A DNA stretch of 64,000 nt. It comes from Verrucomicrobiota bacterium. GTDB lineage: Bacteria > Verrucomicrobiota > Verrucomicrobiia > Limisphaerales > J093. The DNA is taken from positions 1 through 64,000 of the forward strand of contig JAKLFY010000007.1 in the NCBI GenBank assembly GCA_022710935.1. The letters are read 5' to 3'. The position numbers and the translations under genes were made by a program. Under the pieces are notes generated by a model. It saw only the letters and a list, made by a program, of their open reading frames with translations, made no database searches and was not told the DNA's origin. Of the stretch, positions 39,728 to 61,383 are shown piece after piece; position 1 is the stretch's first letter; every line of letters begins with the position of its first letter.

Positions 39728-40636
39728 ATGACACACGCGCAGATCGAGCGCGAGGCGCAGGCGGCGAGGCCAGAGCGCTCGGACGCCCGGTCCGGCAGTC
39801 GGGCGCCCGCCCGGCGGTTCGCGGCTGCGGAACGTGCGATTGGGGCGCGCGAAGCTCTGGCTGACTGCCGATTGTGCGCCCGGGATTGCCGGGTGGACCG
39901 GCTTGCGGGGGAATTGGGGCTGTGCCGTGCCGGCGATCGGCCGTGCGTTCACATGGCCCAGATCGAGATGGGCGAGGAACTCGAACTGATTCCGACGTTC
40001 GCGGTGGCGCTCAGCGGATGCGATCTTCGATGCGCCTTCTGCATTGCGGGCGCGCGAAGCTGGGATCCGGGCGCGGGCGAAGCGATCCCGGCGGCGGCGC
40101 TGGCCCGACGGGCAACAGCGGCGTTGGCGGCAGGCGCCCGCACGGTCACCATCCTGGGTGGGGAACCGACGGTTCACGTGCCGTTCCTGCTGGCGTTGGT
40201 CGCGGCGCTGCCCGACGACGCCAAGCTCGTCCTGAAGACCAACGGTTACGGATCGGCCGTCAGCCGCCAGTTGTTGCAGGGGCTTTTCAACGTGTGGTGC
40301 ATCGACTGCAAGTTCGGCAACGACGCCTGCGCCGCGCGACTGGCCAACGCACCCCATTACTGCGCGGTGGTGCGGGAGAACGTGGTTTGGGCCGCCCTGC
40401 ACGCCGACCTGATCGTGCGTCACCTGGCGATGCCCGGGCATCTCGAGTGCTGCTGGCAACCCATCGCCGCGTGGCTCGGCAAGCATGTTCCCGGCGTCAA
40501 GGTCAGTCTCGGGACCGGCTTCTGGCCGGGCTGGCAGGCGCATCGGCATCAGGAGTTGAACCGCCCCCTCTCCGTCGGCGAGGCAGGGCGCGCCCGCGCG
40601 ATTGCCATCCAATCGGGACTCGATCTGGTCGAGTGA
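39728..40636 (+). CDS. PflX-like radical SAM protein
   Basis: A 302-residue protein resembling COG1313 (PflX, a homologue of pyruvate-formate-lyase-activating enzyme). After a variable 45-residue leader comes CRLCARDCRVDRLAGELGLC, the extra cysteine cluster of this family, then SGCDLRCAFC, the CX3CX2C motif that binds the radical 4Fe-4S cluster and S-adenosylmethionine, then TILGGEPTVH and LKTNGYGS from the SAM barrel. It should generate a 5'-deoxyadenosyl radical and modify a protein or small molecule; the target is unknown. It is first in a plus-strand run with a small protein (25 bases on) and a Ycf46-type ATPase, so a role in that system is likely. Confidence 0.82.
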   Translation: MTHAQIEREAQAARPERSDARSGSRAPARRFAAAERAIGAREALADCRLCARDCRVDRLAGELGLCRAGDRPCVHMAQIEMGEELELIPTFAVALSGCDLRCAFCIAGARSWDPGAGEAIPAAALARRATAALAAGARTVTILGGEPTVHVPFLLALVAALPDDAKLVLKTNGYGSAVSRQLLQGLFNVWCIDCKFGNDACAARLANAPHYCAVVRENVVWAALHADLIVRHLAMPGHLECCWQPIAAWLGKHVPGVKVSLGTGFWPGWQAHRHQELNRPLSVGEAGRARAIAIQSGLDLVE

Positions 40637-40661
40637 CGGGGGCTGCCGCTTTGAACAACTC

Positions 40662-41033
40662 ATGAACAAGGCACACCGAAAGCCGCATAAACAAGCCGCG
40701 TCGTCCGCGGCGGATCACACCGCGGCGTCAACTCCTCCAGCCGCGGGCGGAAGTGCTCCCCACCCGGCGGACACAGGGGCGGCAGCGAAGGGGCGGAGAG
40801 CCTGCGACGCGGCGCCTGCCCTGACGAGCGAAGTGCTGATCCTGCCCGACGGCCGGGTGCTCGCTCACGACCTGACGCCGGTCTTCGCGGGGATGCTGCG
40901 CGGGTTGAATCCCGACGATTCGCATTTCGCCGCGCGGCTTGCGGCCTCGGCCTGTTTGGCGCACTCTGCGCCGGACAATCTCAGAGGCCGGGAGGATGAA
41001 GACGACGGTTGGACGTTGGATGTTGAGCGTTGA
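40662..41033 (+). CDS. Small protein of the Ycf46 cluster, function unknown
   Basis: A 123-residue protein. The first 60 residues are low-complexity and rich in Ala, His and Pro. The core, residues about 53-90 (SEVLILPDGRVLAHDLTPVFAGML), reads as a compact two-strand-plus-helix unit ('vLILPDGrvlahnlTp.fa..L..lnP'), probably the conserved part. The final residues DGWTLDVER and stop are encoded by a dispersed repeat (41008-41034), so the true C-terminus may have been replaced. It sits 25 bases after the radical SAM gene and 12 bases before the ATPase gene, consistent with an operon. No enzyme motif is seen; it could be an adaptor. Confidence 0.6.
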   Translation: MNKAHRKPHKQAASSAADHTAASTPPAAGGSAPHPADTGAAAKGRRACDAAPALTSEVLILPDGRVLAHDLTPVFAGMLRGLNPDDSHFAARLAASACLAHSAPDNLRGREDEDDGWTLDVER

Positions 41034-41034
41034 A
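41008..41034. repeat. GACGTTGGATGTTGAG dispersed repeat
   Basis: The string GTTGGACGTTGGATGTTGAG followed by CGTTGAA is of the LNVQR-coding type that I recognise as a widespread dispersed repeat in this and related phyla. Here it provides the last codons and stop of the small protein gene. Only one clear copy lies in the window. Confidence 0.5.
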
Positions 41035-41045
41035 GGGCCTGCCCT

Positions 41046-42602
41046 ATGACCTTTGCCCAGGAAATCGAAACGCTGATTCGGGCGCGCTACCCGATCCTCT
41101 ACGTTCTTTCGAGCGAGGAGATGCGGGTGCAGAACCTGGTGGTGCAAGTGGCTCAGAAGCGCCAGAAGAAGGTCTTCGAGTGGAGCTACACCACGGGCAT
41201 CGTGCCGGCTGGCACGTCCATCCAATCGCAGAAGCACCGCAACGCCCCGAGCAAGGATCCGCTGGTCGCGCTGGACCTGGTGATTGACCAGGTCGAGCCG
41301 GCCATTTACGTCTTCAAGGACTTTCACCCGTTTCTGACCAAGAACAACTTCGCCGTGGTGCGCAAGCTCAAGGAAATCGCGCTGCATCTGAAAAACAGTC
41401 TCAAGACCGTCATCCTGATCGGGGCAACGCTCGAGATTCCGACGGAACTGGAGAAGGAAGTGACGGTGTTGAACCATCCGCTGCCGACGCGGGACGAGCT
41501 GGGGGAGTTGCTGGACAAGATCATCGAAGACGTGCGCGGGTTCAAGCAGGTGCGGATCGAGTTGGACGAGCCGGGCCGTGAGCGGCTTTTGCAGGCCGCG
41601 CTCGGGCTGACGTTGGGCGAGGCGGAGAACGTGTTCGCCAAGATCATCGTGAAAGACGAGCGGCTCAGCGGCGATGACGTGAACGAGGTGTTCGCCGAGA
41701 AGCAGCAGATCATCCGCAAGAACGGACTGCTCGAATACTACGCCACCGACGAGACCTTCGCACACGTGGGCGGGCTGGCCGTGCTCAAGGACTGGCTCCA
41801 GAGGCGGGCCCGGGCGCTGACCGCCCAGGCCCGTCAGTTCGGCCTGCCGCCCCCCAAGGGCATCCTGCTGCTCGGCGTGCAGGGATGCGGCAAGAGTCTA
41901 TGCGCCAAGGCGGTCTCGAGTCTCTGGCAACTCCCGCTGCTCCGCTTCGATATGGGGCGCATGTTCGGCAGCCTCGTCGGCTCTTCCGAGGAAAACGTGC
42001 GCAAAGCCATCGCCGTCGCCGAATCGGTCGCGCCGGCCATTCTATGGGTGGATGAAATCGACAAGGCCTTCGCCGGCTCGCAGGGCTCGGGAGCCACCGA
42101 CGGCGGCACAACCGCGCGCGTCTTTGGCACGTTCCTGACCTGGCTCTCGGAAAAGACCGCGCCCGTGTTCGTCGTGGCGACCGCCAACGACATTTCCCAA
42201 CTCCCGCCCGAGTTGCTCCGCAAGGGGCGCCTGGACGAGATCTTTTACGTGGACCTGCCGTCGACCGAAGAGCGTGTCGAGATCTTTCGGATTCACATTG
42301 CCAAGCGGGGACGCGATCCGGCCAACTTCGATCTGCCGGCTTTGGTCGAGCGGAGTCCGAATTTCAGCGGAGCGGAAATTGAAGAGGCGGTCATCAGCGG
42401 CCTCTATGATGCGTTTTACACCGGGAACGACCTGGCCACCGAGCATGTCCTCGAAGCCCTGCGCCAGACCGTGCCGCTGGCAAAGACGATGGACGAGCAG
42501 ATCAGCCGGTTGCGCGCCTGGGCCGAGGGCCGCGCTCGCAACGCCAGCGTGCCCCGCGAGCCCCCCCCAGGCGAAACGCCCGTGCGACGGATGGAGCTGT
42601 GA
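41046..42602 (+). CDS. ycf46: Ycf46-type AAA+ ATPase
   Basis: A 518-residue ATPase. The N-terminal 230 residues are the domain typical of Ycf46 ([23 protein letters not shown] at the start, and [13 protein letters not shown] near 85). The AAA+ module has Walker A GVQGCGKS (277-284), Walker B ILWVDEID (332-339), sensor 1 VVATAND (377-382) and an arginine-finger region [10 protein letters not shown] (391-400), all intact. Ycf46 is known from plastid and cyanobacterial genomes and many bacteria; its exact role is unsettled. It probably remodels or unfolds a partner using ATP. Neighbours upstream are a radical SAM protein and a small protein. Downstream, after an intruding gene, are DUF1257 and DUF2997 proteins, families also best known from cyanobacteria. 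Confidence 0.88.
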
Positions 42603-42609
42603 GCCGATC

Positions 42610-45396
42610 CTATCGCACCCGATAGAAGGCGGCGGCGGGCGGCGCGCTCAAGTCGCGAAACTCGTCCGTGTATTCGAGCATTCCCCCGGCTGGCGCGACG
42701 CCCGTCCAGATCGTCCGCCAGTGGACAAGGTCCGTCGAACGTTCGAGGTCATAAGCCCGCCCGGGCGCAGCCGAGAACCGGAGCAGAACGGCGCCGCCGC
42801 TGACGCTGGGCGGGCCAACGAACACCGCAGGCGGCTTCGCGCCGATGTTCACGATGCGGACCAGACCGGTCGACAGACCGCCCCGGCCATCGCTGAGCGT
42901 GTAGTTGAATTGGTCGGCGACGCTGGCGTCATTCGCGTAGGCGATGGTCTCCCCGTAGATCGCCAGGGGAATCCCGTTGGTGCTCGCGGATGCAACACCC
43001 GAAACGAAAAGCGCATCCCCGTCCGCGTCGGTGGCGCTCGCCGTCAGCAGCGCGAGGGGAATCTCCAACACCGCCGGGGCAACATTGGTCAGCGTCGGCA
43101 GCTCGCCCGCAACCGGTCCACGGTTCACAGCGATCGTGCCGTCCGCCACCAATACGTCCGTAAACCAGTTCAGGCCAGCGCCCAGTGGCGGCAGCCGCCA
43201 GCTCGCGAATGCGCCGGCGCGGGCCGGCGCGACGAACAGCCTGAACATCTCGCCGCCCGTCAGCGCCGCCCCCACGTTCGTCACCACCAGTGTCCCGCCA
43301 AAGTCGAGCGTGCCGTCGGTCAGAGCGATCCTGTCCGCCACGGGCGCGCCGCCATGGCGATCGATTTCCAGTATCAGCACGCCGCCCAATGCCGGCGGAC
43401 TTTGCAGGGTGAGGGTGCCGATGGACACGCCCGGAGCGAGCGTGCCGTCGGGATCGATGGTGACGGCGCCGGCGATGACGCCCGTGCCCCCGAGCGTGCC
43501 GCCCACGACGGTCACGCCGCCGACACCGGTCCCCGAGCCGGCGGAGTTGGTCACCAGCAATCGGCCGCCCATCACGGTGGTCCCGCCGGCGTAGGTGTTG
43601 GCCGATGCAAGACGCAGCGTCCCCGGACCCGTTTTCGACAGGCCGCCGTTGGCGAGCGGAACGTCGAGGGAGAGATCCACTTCACTGGCGCGATCGCTCA
43701 CGGCGATTGCGCGCGTGTCGCCGCCCAGGTCGATGGATCCGGAACTGCCGGCGCCGGCGCCCCTGGCGATGATGGCAGTGGCATCCGAGTGGGGATTCAC
43801 GCTCACGTGTCCCGTCACGAGAATCCTGGCGGGGGCCGTCGCGTGCGGCATCAGGCGGATGGTCTCGAAGGCGAGAGTGCCCCCGGCCAGCGTCAACACG
43901 CGGCTCGCATCCACCTGCAGCGTATGGACGGTGAGGCTGGCGTTGCCGCCGATCGAGACCGGACCGGAGAACTGGGCCGAGACGGGTCCGGCGTGCCGGA
44001 CGTGCGGCGAATCATCGGCCCGGTAATTGGGGTTGTAGTTGATCGTCAGCGAGCCGCCCGTGAGATCGAGCGCCTCGCGCAGGTAGAGCTTGCGGATGTT
44101 GTGGGTCCCGACGGAGACGGTAACGGTGACGTTCGCCGCGGGCCGCTCGATGATGACCGTGTCATACTGGCCAGAGGCTGGGCCGCTGCCCGGTGCGCCC
44201 GGCAGCCGCGGCGCGGGCAACGGGCCGGTGGCGTACGGAGTCGTCTGGCCGGGGGGCGTGACGGGCGCCGTGACCGGTTGACCACTGTTCCAGTTGGTCA
44301 GCACGCTCCAATCGCCGCCGCGGTCGCTCGACCAGACCGCTGGAACGAGAGAGTTGCGCACGAACTCGACGTCGCCGTGGGCGACGTTGCCATCCACGGT
44401 CCCATCGACCGTGGCGAAGCCGGGAATCGAGACCGTGCTGGCGTACTGCCAGAAGGACCACGGATCGGCGTCGCCGTAGTCGTCCCACGGACCGTAATAC
44501 CCCGCGTACGTTGTGTAGGTGTGCTTGGGGCTGCCCGTTTGCACCGGGATCGCGTTCGGGTTGCTGTTGTCCGAATAGCGCGCGTTCCAGAGCAGCGGGA
44601 AGGCCGGGCCGGTGACGCTGGGGGCGTACCCGACCGGTTTGGCGAGCAAGTCGCGACGCGCCGCCGTCGCCCCCTGGAGAATGCTCGAGTAGTTTCCGTT
44701 GATGTAGATGCCCGGTCGAATCCGCATGACCGCATACATCCGGTTCGAGAAATCGATGGCGAACTGAGCCAGCGCGTCGCTCCCCGCGCCCGCCTCCAGG
44801 TCGCAGATCGGCATCAGATACCCGGGCCGCATCCACGCCCCCGCCATCTGGGTGAAATGGTCCGCCTCGTCCGCACCGGTGTTCCCCGCCACGTCCGGGC
44901 GGGCAAAGTGGTACGGCCCGGCCAGCATCCCGGCGGCGACGGCGCGGGTGATATTCTGCACAAATCGCGGATCGTCGTACCGTCGTGAGAGGGTCGATGA
45001 GGTGCCGCCACCCGGGGTGCCCTGCGGTTGGTCGACGCCTGTGGTGCCGCCGCGCGTGGCCCGGATGAAAACAAATCGCCGCTGGCCGGTGGCGAAGGCG
45101 ATGTTCCAGTTGGCCTGGGAGATCCCGGCGCTGGAGCTGCCGCAGTTCCAGTAGGAAATGTCCGCGCCCAACACCCGCTCTTGAGCCGACGCAGGAAAAG
45201 CCGTGCTCACCAAAAGCGTCACGGCCGCGGCACGGACCGCTCTCGCGATCCCCGCTCGAGCGCCTGGCGCGACGAAGCCTGGCCCGGATCGATCACAGGC
45301 TGCGCGCGGAATCGGATCCGGGCTGGTTTGATTCACAAAGGGGTGAAAATGGCCGAAACGCGAGGTCGACACAAGCAGAAGCCGGTCTTTTCTCAC
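42610..45396 (-). CDS. GH25 lysozyme fused to autotransporter-type beta-strand repeats
   Basis: A 928-residue exported protein. After a long leader (hydrophobic stretch about 55-72, ending SAQERV) comes a glycoside hydrolase family 25 (Chalaropsis lysozyme) domain: VLGADISYWN with the early Asp, FVFIRATRGG, AGPYHFARPD, MPICDLEAG with the catalytic Asp-x-Glu, and a final DPWSFWQYAS (residues about 74-300). The middle contains autotransporter-associated beta-strand repeats (LSKTGPGTLRLASANTYAGGTTVMGGRLLV), then a cadherin-like module and the usual C-terminal tail (YDLERSTDLVHWRTI ... FYRVR). It would bind or cut peptidoglycan outside the cell. It is on the opposite strand, between Ycf46 (8 bases from its stop) and DUF1257, splitting an otherwise same-strand cluster. 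The start is unsure: no other ATG lies before the signal segment; GTG at 45336 is an alternative. Confidence 0.8.
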   Translation of the reverse strand: MRKDRLLLVSTSRFGHFHPFVNQTSPDPIPRAACDRSGPGFVAPGARAGIARAVRAAAVTLLVSTAFPASAQERVLGADISYWNCGSSSAGISQANWNIAFATGQRRFVFIRATRGGTTGVDQPQGTPGGGTSSTLSRRYDDPRFVQNITRAVAAGMLAGPYHFARPDVAGNTGADEADHFTQMAGAWMRPGYLMPICDLEAGAGSDALAQFAIDFSNRMYAVMRIRPGIYINGNYSSILQGATAARRDLLAKPVGYAPSVTGPAFPLLWNARYSDNSNPNAIPVQTGSPKHTYTTYAGYYGPWDDYGDADPWSFWQYASTVSIPGFATVDGTVDGNVAHGDVEFVRNSLVPAVWSSDRGGDWSVLTNWNSGQPVTAPVTPPGQTTPYATGPLPAPRLPGAPGSGPASGQYDTVIIERPAANVTVTVSVGTHNIRKLYLREALDLTGGSLTINYNPNYRADDSPHVRHAGPVSAQFSGPVSIGGNASLTVHTLQVDASRVLTLAGGTLAFETIRLMPHATAPARILVTGHVSVNPHSDATAIIARGAGAGSSGSIDLGGDTRAIAVSDRASEVDLSLDVPLANGGLSKTGPGTLRLASANTYAGGTTVMGGRLLVTNSAGSGTGVGGVTVVGGTLGGTGVIAGAVTIDPDGTLAPGVSIGTLTLQSPPALGGVLILEIDRHGGAPVADRIALTDGTLDFGGTLVVTNVGAALTGGEMFRLFVAPARAGAFASWRLPPLGAGLNWFTDVLVADGTIAVNRGPVAGELPTLTNVAPAVLEIPLALLTASATDADGDALFVSGVASASTNGIPLAIYGETIAYANDASVADQFNYTLSDGRGGLSTGLVRIVNIGAKPPAVFVGPPSVSGGAVLLRFSAAPGRAYDLERSTDLVHWRTIWTGVAPAGGMLEYTDEFRDLSAPPAAAFYRVR

Positions 45397-45647
45397 GCGC
45401 CCACGCGCCTGGATCCTTGTGCAGCAGGGTGAGAAGGTGTCACCAGGGTGGACGCCGGGTCAGGGGACCCGGCCTACGACAAGCTGTTGTGACTCAATTG
45501 GCAGGCCGCGTGCCCCCACGCGGCGCAAGGACAGCTCGCTCAGAATTTGTGGCACGCGCGCTGATCGCACGCCGCGTGACGAACCATGGCCCGCCCGGTC
45601 AAACCACCAGAGACCATGAGCCAGAGACCATCAGCTACTTTCGAGTT
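45397..45647. other. Intergenic region with hairpin repeat
   Basis: 45454-45477 is a hairpin (GCCGGGT..ACCCGGC) matching 32586-32609 at 22 of 24 positions. It lies between divergent genes, where a promoter for the DUF1257 operon would be expected. No clear promoter is seen. Confidence 0.5.
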
Positions 45648-46124
45648 ATGGGCGCAGTCACTGTCTTGACACCGATCGTCATTCTCGCGTGGCCAGCGTT
45701 CAGCGCGGTCGTGACCGCCGCCGCGGCCACGCTGGGCTATCAGGTTGCTGCCGCGACCACCGCGCATCGAGCCGCCGCGAAGGAAGAACGGGAACGACCC
45801 ACTCGGGTCGAGTTGGAGATCGACCAGAGCGAACTGGTGACGGACCAACTCGCCCGCGACCAATCCCTCACCGTCGAGCGCGACGGCGTTCAAGTGACGT
45901 TCTCGCGCGACGCCCGCGGCCGGGCAGCCTTATGTGTGACGGGCGTGGGGCGGACAGAGGAAGCCCTGCGGGTGTTGGGCCAGGAATTGAGCCAGCGTGT
46001 GGTGCAGCGCCATGTCTATCAGCGACTGATGGACGAAATCCGGGCCCGGCAGTTCGTCGTGGTCGAGGAGGAGGTGGACGAACACCACGCGATTCGGCTC
46101 AAGGTCCGGCATTGGGACGGTTGA
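45648..46124 (+). CDS. DUF1257 (Ycf35-like) protein
   Basis: A 158-residue protein. Its C-terminal third, LSQRVVQRHVYQRLMDEIRARQFVVVEEEVDEHHAIRLKVRHWDG, matches the end of DUF1257/Ycf35 proteins ('...tQRYayh.vl...r..GF.vveEev..dgsIrl.lrrw'). The N-terminal ~30 residues are hydrophobic (VLTPIVILAWPAFSAVVTAAAATLG), which is unusual for the family and might anchor it in the membrane. The family is found mainly in cyanobacteria and plastids, its function being unknown. I chose ATG 45648; a longer frame open from 45417 runs through a repeat. A DUF2997 gene follows 23 bases later, an association also seen in other genomes. Confidence 0.72.
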   Translation: MGAVTVLTPIVILAWPAFSAVVTAAAATLGYQVAAATTAHRAAAKEERERPTRVELEIDQSELVTDQLARDQSLTVERDGVQVTFSRDARGRAALCVTGVGRTEEALRVLGQELSQRVVQRHVYQRLMDEIRARQFVVVEEEVDEHHAIRLKVRHWDG

Positions 46125-46147
46125 AACCGCTGCAAAGGACGCCAATT

Positions 46148-46348
46148 ATGCCACAACGCCAATTCGATATCACCATCGCGTCCGATGGCCAGGTCCACCT
46201 GCACGTACAGGGCTATAAGGGCAAGAGCTGCCACGATGCGGTGAAGATGTTCGAGCGCATCGTCGGCGAGATCAAATCCCAGCAGATGACCAGCGAGTTC
46301 TACGAGCCCGACGAGCTCGTGCGCTATCACTTGGAGCAGAGACAGTAA
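46148..46348 (+). CDS. DUF2997 protein
   Basis: A 66-residue protein: FDITIASDGQVHLHVQGYKGKSCHDAVKMFERIVGEI shows the DUF2997 pattern of two strands ('i.i..dG.v...v.G.kGksC'), an invariant Lys-Ser-Cys (26-28) and a long helix, ending in a short acidic tail (EFYEPDE). The Gly-Lys-Ser-Cys tract could contact a cofactor or substrate, but no function is established. It lies 23 bases after DUF1257 and 19 bases before the S26-like gene, so it is almost certainly co-transcribed. Confidence 0.78.
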   Translation: MPQRQFDITIASDGQVHLHVQGYKGKSCHDAVKMFERIVGEIKSQQMTSEFYEPDELVRYHLEQRQ

Positions 46349-46367
46349 ACCCGAGGCTGCCTTGCCG

Positions 46368-47255
46368 ATGAAAGTGTCCCCTCACCCTGACCCGTTGCGG
46401 GCTTCGTCGTACTACCCGCCCCGGGCGAAATGGGGGGCCAAACTGGCCCGCCCGGCGCGGCATTGGGGGAGCAAGTTCGAACGGCTCGCCCGTCGTCTCC
46501 CGGCGCCGCAGGCGCTCTGTCGGCATGCGGTTTGCCTCCTGGCGCCCGGGGTTTCGTTCTCCCTGGGCGGATGGCGGGGGCTCGGCCTCTGCATTCTGGC
46601 GGGATGGCTGGCGGCTCTGGTGCTGTACCTGGTGTGTCTGGGTTCTTCGGTGGCCAACTGGGCGATCATGCTGATGATCGCGGCGCACACGGCCAGCGTC
46701 GCGCACCGATTTCAGCCGTGGCTTCTCCAACAGCGCTTGCCCGCCCAGATCGGCATTGGAATGTCTCTGTTCGCTGTCGTCAGTTTCTTCGTTTACGTCC
46801 CGGCGCGGGACGGGTTCGAGCGGTACGTGGCCACGCCGCTGCCTGCAGCCGGCCGTGTTGTGGTGGTGGACCCGCGGGTGCGTCCCGGCTCGATTCAGCG
46901 TGGCGACTGGTTGGCCTATCGTATCGAGGGCAGCTACGCCAACGGGGTCCAGATTCGCGCGGGCTTCGGTTTTGGTCCGGTGCTGGCCGTGCCGGGCGAT
47001 CGCGTCGCGTTCGGAGAACGAGTGTTTCGCGTCAACGATACAGTCGGCCTGCGCTTGACTCACATGCCGCGCATGGGCGAACTCGTGATTGCGCCGGAGC
47101 GATGGCTGGTCTGGCCCGATGTCGACGTGAGCATGCACGGCGTCGACGAGGACGTTGCGGTCCAGGCCGTGCTGAACGTCGCTTTGCCCAGGCGGAGCGA
47201 TCTGGTGGGTCAACCGTACAGACACTGGTTCTTCAGAAAGCAGAGTGCGCCATGA
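46368..47255 (+). CDS. Membrane protein with degenerate signal-peptidase (S26) fold
   Basis: A 295-residue protein. Three closely spaced hydrophobic segments (about residues 50-105: CLLAPGVSFSLGG, GLCILAGWLAALVLYLVCL, WAIMLMIAAHTASVA) and a fourth (IGIGMSLFAVVSFFVYV) precede a soluble domain with the S26/LexA-like core: PGSIQRGDWLAYRI corresponds to the 'SM.PTL..GD..lv' box, and VLAVPGDRVAF to the 'KRv.g.PGD.v' box. In active enzymes a Ser lies eight residues before the first GD and a Lys seven before the PGD Gly. Here those places hold Val and Gly, so both catalytic residues appear lost and the protein is probably a binding or structural module. Its stop overlaps the next gene's start (ATGA). 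Confidence 0.68.
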   Translation: MKVSPHPDPLRASSYYPPRAKWGAKLARPARHWGSKFERLARRLPAPQALCRHAVCLLAPGVSFSLGGWRGLGLCILAGWLAALVLYLVCLGSSVANWAIMLMIAAHTASVAHRFQPWLLQQRLPAQIGIGMSLFAVVSFFVYVPARDGFERYVATPLPAAGRVVVVDPRVRPGSIQRGDWLAYRIEGSYANGVQIRAGFGFGPVLAVPGDRVAFGERVFRVNDTVGLRLTHMPRMGELVIAPERWLVWPDVDVSMHGVDEDVAVQAVLNVALPRRSDLVGQPYRHWFFRKQSAP

Positions 47256-48025
47256 GCCGGTTTGAGAATCTGGAGCTGAACCCGGAATTCGATGGCGAGG
47301 TCAATCCCCGCGCCCCGGCCAAGGACGAAGCCTATTACGTGGCGGGAGCGCGCGCGGACTTCGAGAACGCCGAGTTCGAGCAGGCGTTGCGCGGGTTCGC
47401 CAAGGCGCTCGAGTTTAATCCGCACAATACGGCGGCCTGGGCCGGCCAGGTGCGCTCGCTCATCGAGTTGGGCGAATTTCGCGAGGCGTTGCTCTGGGCG
47501 AACAAGGCGCTCGAGCGGTTTCCGCACGATCCCGAGCTGCTGGCCGCCAAGGCCGTCGCGCTCGCCCGCAGGGGCGACCTCGATGAAGCCCTGGCCATCT
47601 CCGATGCCTCGATCGAGGAACGCGGCGACGCGCCTTACCTCTGGCTGGCGCGGGGCGACGTGCTGCTCGCCCGCGAGGAGAGCCGCGCCGACTATTGCTT
47701 CGACAAGGCCCTGGCGCTCGCCCCGGGCGACTGGGTGGTCGCCTGGCTGGCCGCGCGCATCCGCCATTACTACAGGCAATTCGTCGCGGCGATCAATCTG
47801 CTCCAACAAGCCATCGAATGGAATACGACCCATTTCCTCCTCTGGCTGGAACTGGGGCGTTGCCAGCTTGCCCTCGGTCTGGCCGGCCCGGCGGAACGTT
47901 CCTTTCACCAGGCCCGCCAGTTGAATCCACACTGCAGCGAGGCCGCATCCGGGGCGGGCCGGGCCGCGTCCACCGGCTGGTGGGCCCGGGGGAGCGGTTG
48001 GTGGCGCCGGATCTTTCATGCATGA
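47252..48025 (+). CDS. TPR-repeat protein
   Basis: A 257-residue soluble protein made of tetratricopeptide repeats: ADFENAEFEQALRGFAKALEFNPHN (about 35-60), VRSLIELGEFREALLWANKAL, AVALARRGDLDEALAISDASI, RGDVLLAREESRADYCFDKALAL and ELGRCQLALGLAGPAERSFHQ. Six or so repeats cover residues 25-230; a Gly/Trp-rich tail follows. It overlaps its neighbours by four bases on both sides (47252-47255 and 48022-48025), so translation of all three is coupled. TPR scaffolds commonly bring partners together, and here it could link the membrane protein to the PilT-type ATPase. Confidence 0.82.
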   Translation: MSRFENLELNPEFDGEVNPRAPAKDEAYYVAGARADFENAEFEQALRGFAKALEFNPHNTAAWAGQVRSLIELGEFREALLWANKALERFPHDPELLAAKAVALARRGDLDEALAISDASIEERGDAPYLWLARGDVLLAREESRADYCFDKALALAPGDWVVAWLAARIRHYYRQFVAAINLLQQAIEWNTTHFLLWLELGRCQLALGLAGPAERSFHQARQLNPHCSEAASGAGRAASTGWWARGSGWWRRIFHA

Positions 48026-49098
48026 ACACAGCTCCGCTGGATCGGCTTCTGCAAACCGCCGTCGATTATCAGGCCTCGGACCTGCACCTGGTCGTCGGCG
48101 TGCCGCCGGGCTATCGCGTGAACGGCGAGATCATCCTCGCCGACGGGGACGCGCTCACGGAGACCGAGGTCAACCGCATCACCAATGAACTGCTCAACGA
48201 GCCGCAGAAACGAAAATTCGAGGAGGATTGGGAGCTTTGCATGTCCTGGTGTCACCCGACGGCTGGCCGGATGCGGGTGACGATCTACCGGCACAATGGG
48301 CATCCCGAGCTGAGCCTGCGGTTCTGCGGGCACGAGATCGCCAGCCGCGAGACCCTCGGCCTGCCGCCGCAAATCGACGATTTGGCCCGCCGCCCGAACG
48401 GGCTGGTCCTGATCACCGGTCCGACCGGGTCCGGCAAGACAACCACCATGAATTACATGGTCGACCTGATCAATCGGGAGCGGCGCTGCAAAATCGTCAC
48501 CATCGAGGACCCGATCGAATTCGTGCATGAAAGCCAGTGCGCCATGGTGGTGCAGCAGGAGGTGATGACAGACGTCCGGTCCTTCCACCGCGCCTTGGTT
48601 CATGTCCTGCGCCAAGACCCCGACGTGATCGTGATCGGCGAACTCCGCGATCCGGAGACCATCGCCACCACCCTGACGGCGGCTGAAACCGGCCATCTGG
48701 TCCTGGCCACGATGCACGCCCCGAGCGTTGCCCATGCGGTCGAGCGCATCGTGGGCGTCTTCGAGGGGAGCACCGAACGGCAAGTGCGGATCATGCAACT
48801 GGCCAACGCGCTGCAGGGCATCATTGCCCAGGAACTGCTGCCGGCGATCGATCGCAACCGGCGCGTGCTCGCCTACGAGTTCGTCACGGCCACCGGCGCA
48901 GTGCGCAACATCATCCGCGAAAACCAACTCCACCAGTTGGAGAACATCCTCCAGACCGGCCGTCGCGAGGGCATGATCCTGATGGACAGTTGCCTCCATG
49001 ATCTGTACGTGAAGTGCCTCATCACTTACGACACCGCCCTGAGCCGCGCGCGCAATCCGGACGCGATCCTCAAACAGAAAGAGCCGGCCTTGGCGTAA
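48022..49098 (+). CDS. pilT: PilT-type twitching-motility ATPase
   Basis: A 358-residue member of the type II/IV secretion ATPase superfamily, of the PilT branch. The N-terminal PAS-like domain starts LDRLLQTAVDYQASDLHLVVGVPPGYRVNG. The RecA-like domain has Walker A GPTGSGKT (133-140), Asp box TIEDPIEFVH, Walker B VIVIGELRDPET and His box TGHLVLATMHA. PilT normally retracts type IV pili. No pilus genes lie nearby; instead it ends a Ycf46/DUF1257/DUF2997 cluster, coupled to a TPR gene, so it may serve another machine. A second possibility is that it acts with pilins encoded elsewhere, since prepilin-motif proteins occur in this genome. Confidence 0.85.
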   Translation: MNTAPLDRLLQTAVDYQASDLHLVVGVPPGYRVNGEIILADGDALTETEVNRITNELLNEPQKRKFEEDWELCMSWCHPTAGRMRVTIYRHNGHPELSLRFCGHEIASRETLGLPPQIDDLARRPNGLVLITGPTGSGKTTTMNYMVDLINRERRCKIVTIEDPIEFVHESQCAMVVQQEVMTDVRSFHRALVHVLRQDPDVIVIGELRDPETIATTLTAAETGHLVLATMHAPSVAHAVERIVGVFEGSTERQVRIMQLANALQGIIAQELLPAIDRNRRVLAYEFVTATGAVRNIIRENQLHQLENILQTGRREGMILMDSCLHDLYVKCLITYDTALSRARNPDAILKQKEPALA

Positions 49099-60367: not shown

Positions 60368-60417
60368 GCCGCTCAACAATCAGGCGATAACACACCACCG
60401 CCTGACGTCGTATGCGC

Positions 60418-61383
60418 ATGGCACGAATCAAGGTGAGCGGCCGGGGGGCCGTGTATCACTGCATCTCGCGGGTGGTCGGCGGACAGATGCTCCTTGGCCC
60501 GCCGGAAAGGGACAAGCTTCAGGAGATGCTCTGGCAGCAGGCGGCATTCAGCGGGATCGAGATCGTCACCTACTGCCTGATGGCCAATCATATTCACCTG
60601 CTGCTCCGTGTCCCCGCCAAGTTCATGGCCACGGATGCCGAGTTGGTCGAACGCGCCCTCGCCCTTTACGGCAAGAACAACCTCTATGCCCAGACGCTGC
60701 GGACAGCCTTCGAGAAGCAAGGGGGCCTGCCCAAGGATCTGCGCGAGGGTCTCCGGCTGCGCATCGGAGACGTGTCGGAGTTCATGAAAGAGCTCAAGCA
60801 GCGGTTCAGCAAGTGGTTCAACCGGCAGCAGAATCGGTGTGGAACGCTCTGGGCGGAGCGGTTCAAGAGCGTGCTGGTCGAGGATCGCCACGGCGCCGTC
60901 CAGGCCGTGGCGGCGTATCTGGACTTGAATCCGGTGCGCGCGGGGTTGGTGAAGGACCCCAAGGATTACCGGTGGTGCGGGTACGCGGAGGCGGTTGCGG
61001 GAAACGCGTCAGCGCGCACGGGGCTGGCAAGTTTTCACCCGTCCTCCGACTGGGCGGAAGCGGCACGAGACTACCAGCAGCTCTTGTTGGTGACCGACGC
61101 CGGCACTGGGGAATCCGGCAAGCCGGTGCTGGAACGGAAGAAGATCCGGCAGAAGTTCGAGAAGAATGCGGATCTGGCCCTGGGCCAGGTATTGCGGTTG
61201 CGGGTAAGGTACTTCAGCGATGGCGTGGTGCTCGGGTCACGGGACTATGTCAACGAAATCTTCGGCGAGTATCGCGATCGGTTCGGACCCCGTCGGCGCA
61301 GCGGTGCGCGACCGATGCGCGGTTTGCCGTCTCTCGAGAACCTGGCGACGATGCGGGACCTGCAAGTCAACGTGGTGAGCTGA
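60418..61383 (+). CDS. REP-associated tyrosine transposase (RAYT, Y1 family)
   Basis: A 321-residue protein. The HUH single-strand nuclease core has ARIKVSGRGAVYHCISRVVGGQ at the start, the HUH motif LMANHIHLLLRVP (His58, His60) and the tyrosine helix VAAYLDLNPVRAGLV, whose Tyr167 aligns with the catalytic tyrosine of E. coli TnpA-REP (Y-x4-NP pattern). FMKELKQRFSKWFNRQQNRCGTLWAERFKSVLVED lies between. All catalytic residues are present, so the enzyme could act. The C-terminal ~120 residues are an extension seen in larger relatives. RAYTs are single-copy domesticated transposases that process REP palindromes; such palindromes are abundant in this window. ATG 60412 (MRMARI) is an alternative. 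Confidence 0.88.
   Translation: MARIKVSGRGAVYHCISRVVGGQMLLGPPERDKLQEMLWQQAAFSGIEIVTYCLMANHIHLLLRVPAKFMATDAELVERALALYGKNNLYAQTLRTAFEKQGGLPKDLREGLRLRIGDVSEFMKELKQRFSKWFNRQQNRCGTLWAERFKSVLVEDRHGAVQAVAAYLDLNPVRAGLVKDPKDYRWCGYAEAVAGNASARTGLASFHPSSDWAEAARDYQQLLLVTDAGTGESGKPVLERKKIRQKFEKNADLALGQVLRLRVRYFSDGVVLGSRDYVNEIFGEYRDRFGPRRRSGARPMRGLPSLENLATMRDLQVNVVS

Follow-up and report, generated by a model that had tools for sequence, protein, structure and literature searches.

The 64,000-nucleotide stretch analyzed here (positions 1 to 64,000 of contig JAKLFY010000007.1 from a Verrucomicrobiota bacterium; hereafter the window) contains an operon of eight plus-strand genes at 39728-49098, which is the subject of this report. 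The genes are tightly spaced or overlap through ATGA, except at one gap of about 3 kb. The operon genes, together with the gene that lies in the gap, are as follows.

39728..40636, plus strand: radical SAM enzyme, PflX/activase-like (Pfam PF04055, 1.2e-9; conserved residues in 49 sequences)
40662..41033, plus strand: small protein of no known family (gap of 25 after the radical SAM gene)
41046..42602, plus strand: Ycf46-type tandem AAA ATPase (gap of 12 after the small-protein gene; Pfam AAA, 2e-28)
42610..45396, minus strand: inserted GH25/PATR/Big_9 surface-type gene, 928 aa (Pfam GH25, 2e-13; PATR, 1e-9; Big_9)
45648..46124, plus strand: DUF1257 (Ycf35)-related protein with an altered, hydrophobic N-terminus
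46148..46348, plus strand: DUF2997 protein (gap of 23 after the DUF1257 gene; PF11211, 9e-14)
46362..47255, plus strand: S26-fold membrane protein without the Ser/Lys pair (start codon TTG, alternatively ATG at 46368; gap of 13)
47252..48025, plus strand: TPR protein (ATGA overlap at 47252; TPR_19, 7e-19)
48022..49098, plus strand: PilT/PilU-family hexameric ATPase (ATGA overlap at 48022; TIGR01420, 7e-113)

A preliminary description made from the sequence alone had proposed this run, and all eight genes lie as it placed them, with four gaps of 25 bases or fewer and two 4-base overlaps. The single interruption that it described is also present, spanning 3045 bases from the end of the Ycf46 gene (42602) to the start of the DUF1257 gene (45648) and holding the minus-strand gene. 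This inserted gene splits the operon here and is outside the system. It was not seen at the break in the relatives compared, and in the nearest of them (L032; loci are given L numbers throughout) its position is occupied by a gene for a 103-aa membrane protein and there is no GH25 gene, so the interruption is local and the operon is unbroken elsewhere. The 103-aa protein occurs likewise in other relatives, and no trace of it was found in the window. The repeats flanking the inserted gene show no clear mobile-element ends.

The family assignments of the preliminary description stand for the radical SAM, AAA, DUF2997, TPR and PilT proteins, which are recognized by Pfam or TIGR models, and need qualification for the other two. 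First, the window's DUF1257 protein taken alone scores 14.2 bits (E 0.05), below the Pfam gathering score of 22.2, and the assignment comes from a profile of its relatives, whose match to true DUF1257 is confined to the C-terminal half (probability 96%, E 7e-9). No convincing PDB match was found for it (Foldseek best E 0.05; VIA best Z 6.9), and since its model is also of low confidence (predicted local distance difference test score, pLDDT, 65) we claim no fold. Second, the S26 fold is invisible in the window protein alone, and Peptidase_S26 (PF10502) is matched by 19 of 29 relatives, with a best value of 1.7e-8. The alignment contains no conserved Ser or Lys and hence lacks the catalytic pair, and these comparisons show a membrane protein of dead-protease fold.

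A Ycf46 scan of bacterial genomes yields 80 loci, nearly all of them in Verrucomicrobiota, and 30 of the 80 have the full order of radical SAM, small protein, Ycf46, DUF1257, DUF2997, S26, TPR and PilT. The full order is also present in a Planctomycetota metagenome-assembled genome (L111), where the small protein is visible by translation. A search of 294 Planctomycetota genomes with an S26 profile gives eight strong matches; the run is present at L246 and L248, which are among these, and at L249, a weaker match, on contigs of 3.9 to 7.4 Mb, and at L244 it is accompanied by a rhomboid-like gene. The small protein was not found in this set of four loci with the profile used. The homologues thus occur together elsewhere, as the preliminary description had asked of a gene-neighborhood search, and the recurrence of their order in two phyla shows that the arrangement exceeds chance. 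Within the window's order the S26 protein is present in 30 of 196 sampled genomes and DUF2997 in 51, with 27 of the 30 S26-bearing genomes among those 51. An even sample of the whole phylum has the S26 protein in 4 of 388 genomes, and within the window's own family the nine other genomes sampled all lack it.

Five of the genes come and go together. Some loci have a reduced form, in which Ycf46, TPR and PilT are kept and the radical SAM, small, DUF1257, DUF2997 and S26 genes are absent (for example L047, L054, L058, L061, L062 and L080). Among the 49 loci with enough flanking sequence, 28 have both the radical SAM and small-protein pair and the DUF1257, DUF2997 and S26 trio, 19 have neither, and two are discordant; four of these loci were corrected beforehand for split operons, which favors agreement slightly. 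Full and reduced forms are interleaved on the Ycf46 tree (L034 with L047, L038 with L061, L068 with L084, and the window and L032 with L086), and the state changes 10 to 12 times. In five well-supported independent pairs, too few to reach p 0.05, the traits move the same way in 4.8 on average and never in opposite ways (sign test p 0.06). One of the discordant loci, L046, is a split operon, and in the other, L057, the S26 block is elsewhere in the genome and a diverged radical SAM gene lies downstream of Ycf46. Loci with an isolated radical SAM, small protein and Ycf46 set have the DUF1257, DUF2997, S26, TPR and PilT block elsewhere in the same genome, in part or whole where contigs end; the split halves are L043/L164, L050/L170, L072/L173, L046/L206, L036/L211, L039/L210 and L102/L209. 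One genome, that of L056, has no DUF2997. DUF2997 is absent genome-wide from most of the reduced-form genomes checked. The radical SAM, small, DUF1257, DUF2997 and S26 genes are thus gained and lost as one unit. The window's genome itself has a second Ycf46, 69% identical and alone on one contig (L189, G000:C5:15963-17477), and a second TPR-PilT-TPR410 set (L183, G000:C205:20000-32000) whose PilT is 65% identical; together these make up a second copy of the system, split and in reduced form, in addition to the full operon.

These patterns bear on the alternative that the genes act independently and share an operon for regulation alone, with no joint complex. Several members do lead wide lives of their own, and a gene for an extracytoplasmic function (ECF) sigma factor heads most clusters, but joint loss, an order conserved across phyla and co-occurrence of the parts when split make this reading improbable.

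The PilT protein raises a different question, whether the operon is an accessory to type IV pili or type II secretion in which PilT is the motor that retracts the pili of the cell, with the remaining genes regulating or servicing it. The protein has a full PilT family score (TIGR01420, 377 bits against a curated cut-off of 319), its Walker A and B residues are invariant, and the PDB entries that it matches best are pilus retraction ATPases (4e-84). PilC/GspF, the platform partner of PilT, lies within 5 kb of the operon, on either side, in eight loci, so that a weak link to pili remains, but it is missing from most loci. Three observations argue against this explanation. First, the operon encodes neither a pilin nor PilB or PilQ. 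Second, a canonical PilB-PilT-PilB-PilC pilus locus is present elsewhere in the genome with its own PilT, which is 37-38% identical to that of the operon, and the operon PilT is therefore neither placed with pilus genes nor the sole PilT of its genome. Third, in a tree whose outgroups are all from this one genome, the PilTs of the operon group together across both phyla with support 100, in a clade that leaves out the genome's other PilTs, including that of the pilus locus; the sole exception is L126, the genome's second operon-type PilT, which falls inside the clade. Relative to known retraction ATPases, the operon PilT shares a full-length family match and the motor motifs, and departs from them in its separate clade, its ties to TPR and Ycf46, and the absence of pilus genes from the operon. 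We consider a role as a pilus accessory doubtful; the preliminary description had held that finding PilT and TPR with pilus genes elsewhere would undo its reading, and this is not what is seen. A PilB/GspE-type ATPase is encoded 17 kb downstream of the operon (G000:C227:66219-67376).

Order in two phyla, joint loss, co-occurrence of split halves and a dedicated PilT clade together lead us to conclude that this conserved operon very probably encodes one functional system, as had been proposed for this gene set. The system has two layers: a mobile core, and a membrane and motor layer found in Verrucomicrobiota and Planctomycetota.

The core is a quartet of radical SAM, Ycf46, DUF1257 and DUF2997 genes, which is the older, mobile part of the operon. 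Ycf46 and DUF2997, usually with DUF1257, occur in divergent copies within the same order, on plasmids of Paenarthrobacter, Bacillus and Geminocystis and on viral contigs, frequently accompanied by a short NrdG-like radical SAM protein (QGCSLxCPGCFNPETH); a Treponema plasmid has only the short radical SAM gene and Ycf46. The phage copies lie near ParB, RecA or DNA polymerase genes. A carriage of this kind could point to a defense or selfish module on mobile elements, but PADLOC returns only a generic AAA match (IetA) and viperin-level radical SAM matches, the eight-gene form follows its phyla, and no known defense genes recur among the clustered neighbors looked at, all of which makes such a role very improbable. 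The arrangement of short radical SAM, Ycf46, DUF1257 and DUF2997 genes recurs on chromosomes, plasmids and phages (L128-L151, L192-L196) as a widespread four-gene module. In this short-radical-SAM core a large WD40 protein is encoded directly after Ycf46 at L131:9593-11668, L139:1506-3587 and L140:5475-7976, and a DUF3150 protein adjoins triads without a radical SAM gene (L137, L144, L147, L165 and L197).

The radical SAM enzyme of the operon, which we take to be of the PflX (COG1313)-like family, has both the CX3CX2C motif (C98-C102-C105) and GGE, and extra N-terminal cysteines at positions 47, 50, 54 and 66. The CX3CX2C motif, an N-terminal cysteine group and an RHLxxPGH segment are shared with PflX-like proteins, the difference being that the enzyme is here a member of this operon. 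DUF2997 scores 51.5 bits against a gathering score of 24.1 and has an invariant GxxGxxC (G22, G25, C28), whose cysteine is kept in 23 of 23 divergent copies listed. In relatives of the small protein, which are about 65 aa long, the segment E-x-LILPDGRIlaHNLTP is conserved. The idea that the 65-aa protein corresponds to the C-terminal hairpin of short radical SAM proteins found no support (profile probability 6%).

These proteins could instead form a peptide or protein modification system, in which the target of the radical SAM enzyme is the 65-aa protein or DUF2997, and the other proteins see to the handling and export of the product. The small conserved protein adjoins the radical SAM gene in most loci (and, by translation, in L111), the DUF2997 cysteine is invariant, and radical SAM proteins of two different subfamilies recur with the core. 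However, an exporter and an active peptidase are both lacking, and the S26 protein is without the catalytic pair; no variable core peptide is seen in the small protein; and triads without a radical SAM gene exist. Such a system therefore seems unlikely.

Ycf46 is modeled (pLDDT 76) as a tandem AAA protein, and the model can be aligned to p97 (residues 1-485, Z 16.6) and to Cdc48-Npl4 (356 residues at 5.2 Å). The Walker A motif is absent from the N-terminal AAA-like domain (D1) in all 81 sequences compared, and the C-terminal AAA domain (D2) is intact, with K283, E337, R392 and R395 invariant in 81 of 81. The model alignment thus contains two AAA folds in the manner of Cdc48/p97, but not two ATP-binding rings or an N-domain, the protein beginning at D1. 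On this model, Ycf46 would be a Cdc48/p97-like tandem AAA protein with a dead first ring.

The second layer consists of the S26-fold pseudopeptidase, the TPR protein and the dedicated PilT, often behind an ECF sigma gene and sometimes with a rhomboid-like protein. The sigma gene is directly upstream in about 65 of the 80 loci, followed in 61 by a gene for a conserved 73-aa protein. At 19 loci, and at L244 as well, a rhomboid-like membrane protein is encoded ahead of the radical SAM gene. The Verrucomicrobiota copies of it, like that of L244, have lost the catalytic Ser, and L107 retains GASG. None of the sigma, 73-aa and rhomboid genes was found in the window. The N-terminus of the TPR protein is near-invariant, MSRFxNLE[LF], in Planctomycetota too, and is resembled by the C-terminus of the rhomboid-like protein, S-x-R-[IV]-x-x-LEL (e.g. 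L042:8256-8903). A stricter pattern of the shared motif is found in 59 of 10652 open reading frames and in 49 of 53 TPR proteins, and a shared docking motif is possible. Genes for HSP20, Lon protease and a LolA-like protein lie just upstream of the sigma gene in about ten loci (L034, L047, L050, L052, L054, L058, L085, L094 and L098). Elsewhere in the window, the start of an open reading frame at 60412-61383 resembles, by eye, a REP-associated transposase.

The mechanism that we favor, tentatively, is a membrane-attached protein-remodeling machine, and the remodeling complex suggested by the preliminary description is compatible with the data. Ycf46 would be a Cdc48-like unfoldase that threads a client, its first ring being structural and its second driven by ATP, and DUF1257 and DUF2997 may serve as its adaptor or as redox subunits. 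The radical SAM enzyme would modify, mature or switch a partner, the best candidate being the invariant GxxGxxC of DUF2997. At the inner membrane the TPR protein could link Ycf46 with the PilT ring, and the dead S26 and rhomboid proteins may hold the substrate at the membrane, so that the machine would extract or disassemble a membrane protein or filament subunit with no cleavage. A more specific version by analogy, in which tandem AAA, dead-protease membrane proteins, a TPR-coupled PilT ring and a radical-chemistry switch on an adaptor cysteine form a bacterial dislocation machine akin to Derlin-Cdc48, is quite speculative and rather unlikely.

Several points weigh against the two-layer remodeling machine as a whole. 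The operon encodes no protease, pilin or obvious substrate. A dozen loci keep Ycf46, TPR and PilT but have none of the other five genes, and the radical SAM part is therefore not essential to the motor part; conversely, some core triads have no radical SAM gene. The rhomboid is known from about 20 loci and is absent from the window. Finally, the first-ring reading of Ycf46 depends on the one model, and the two halves of Ycf46 show no likeness when compared by profile. Taking these together, we put the probability that one two-layer system with a remodeling mechanism is the best explanation overall at roughly 0.4.

For decades Ycf46, Ycf35/DUF1257 and DUF2997 have been orphans among the genes of cyanobacteria and plastids. 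The present analysis assigns them and a radical SAM enzyme to a single mobile core, seen in bacteria, plasmids and phages alike, and to an eight-gene machine kept in two phyla, and each family gains testable partners and a tight genetic prediction, that the parts are lost together. Full-text searches of the open-access literature for DUF1257, DUF2997, Ycf46 and Ycf35 found no description of the eight-gene set, in agreement with the earlier statement that no described system has it. The nearest arrangement is 'cluster g' of Synechocystis, DUF2997-ycf35-fed7, in which the pair is joined with a ferredoxin (PMC4284462). As in the operon, DUF2997 and DUF1257 are together beside an iron-sulfur protein and a Ycf46 of the same family is present, but ferredoxin replaces the radical SAM enzyme, Ycf46 is in another operon, and there is no S26, TPR or PilT. 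Loss of Ycf46 (slr0374) reduces EcaB activity (Jiang 2015, as cited in PMC7496141), and in the plastids of freshwater red algae ycf35 and ycf46 tend to be lost along with other genes (PMC5940233).

The closest working analogies, with no claim of membership, are Cdc48 with the pseudoprotease Derlin, where Cdc48 is recruited by the Derlin-type Dfm1, whose tail is functional (PMC8641752), and the bacterial YqgP-FtsH pair of Bacillus (PMC7231995). With Cdc48/p97-Derlin the operon shares a tandem AAA ring and, in some relatives, a dead rhomboid with a conserved C-terminal motif, although it has no N-domain, ubiquitin or protease of the kinds found in these two systems, and the rhomboid is absent from most loci as well as from the window. 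Conversely, PilT and the radical SAM enzyme have no counterpart in either. The operon is a candidate bacterial system in which hexameric motors of two kinds are combined with radical chemistry at a membrane.

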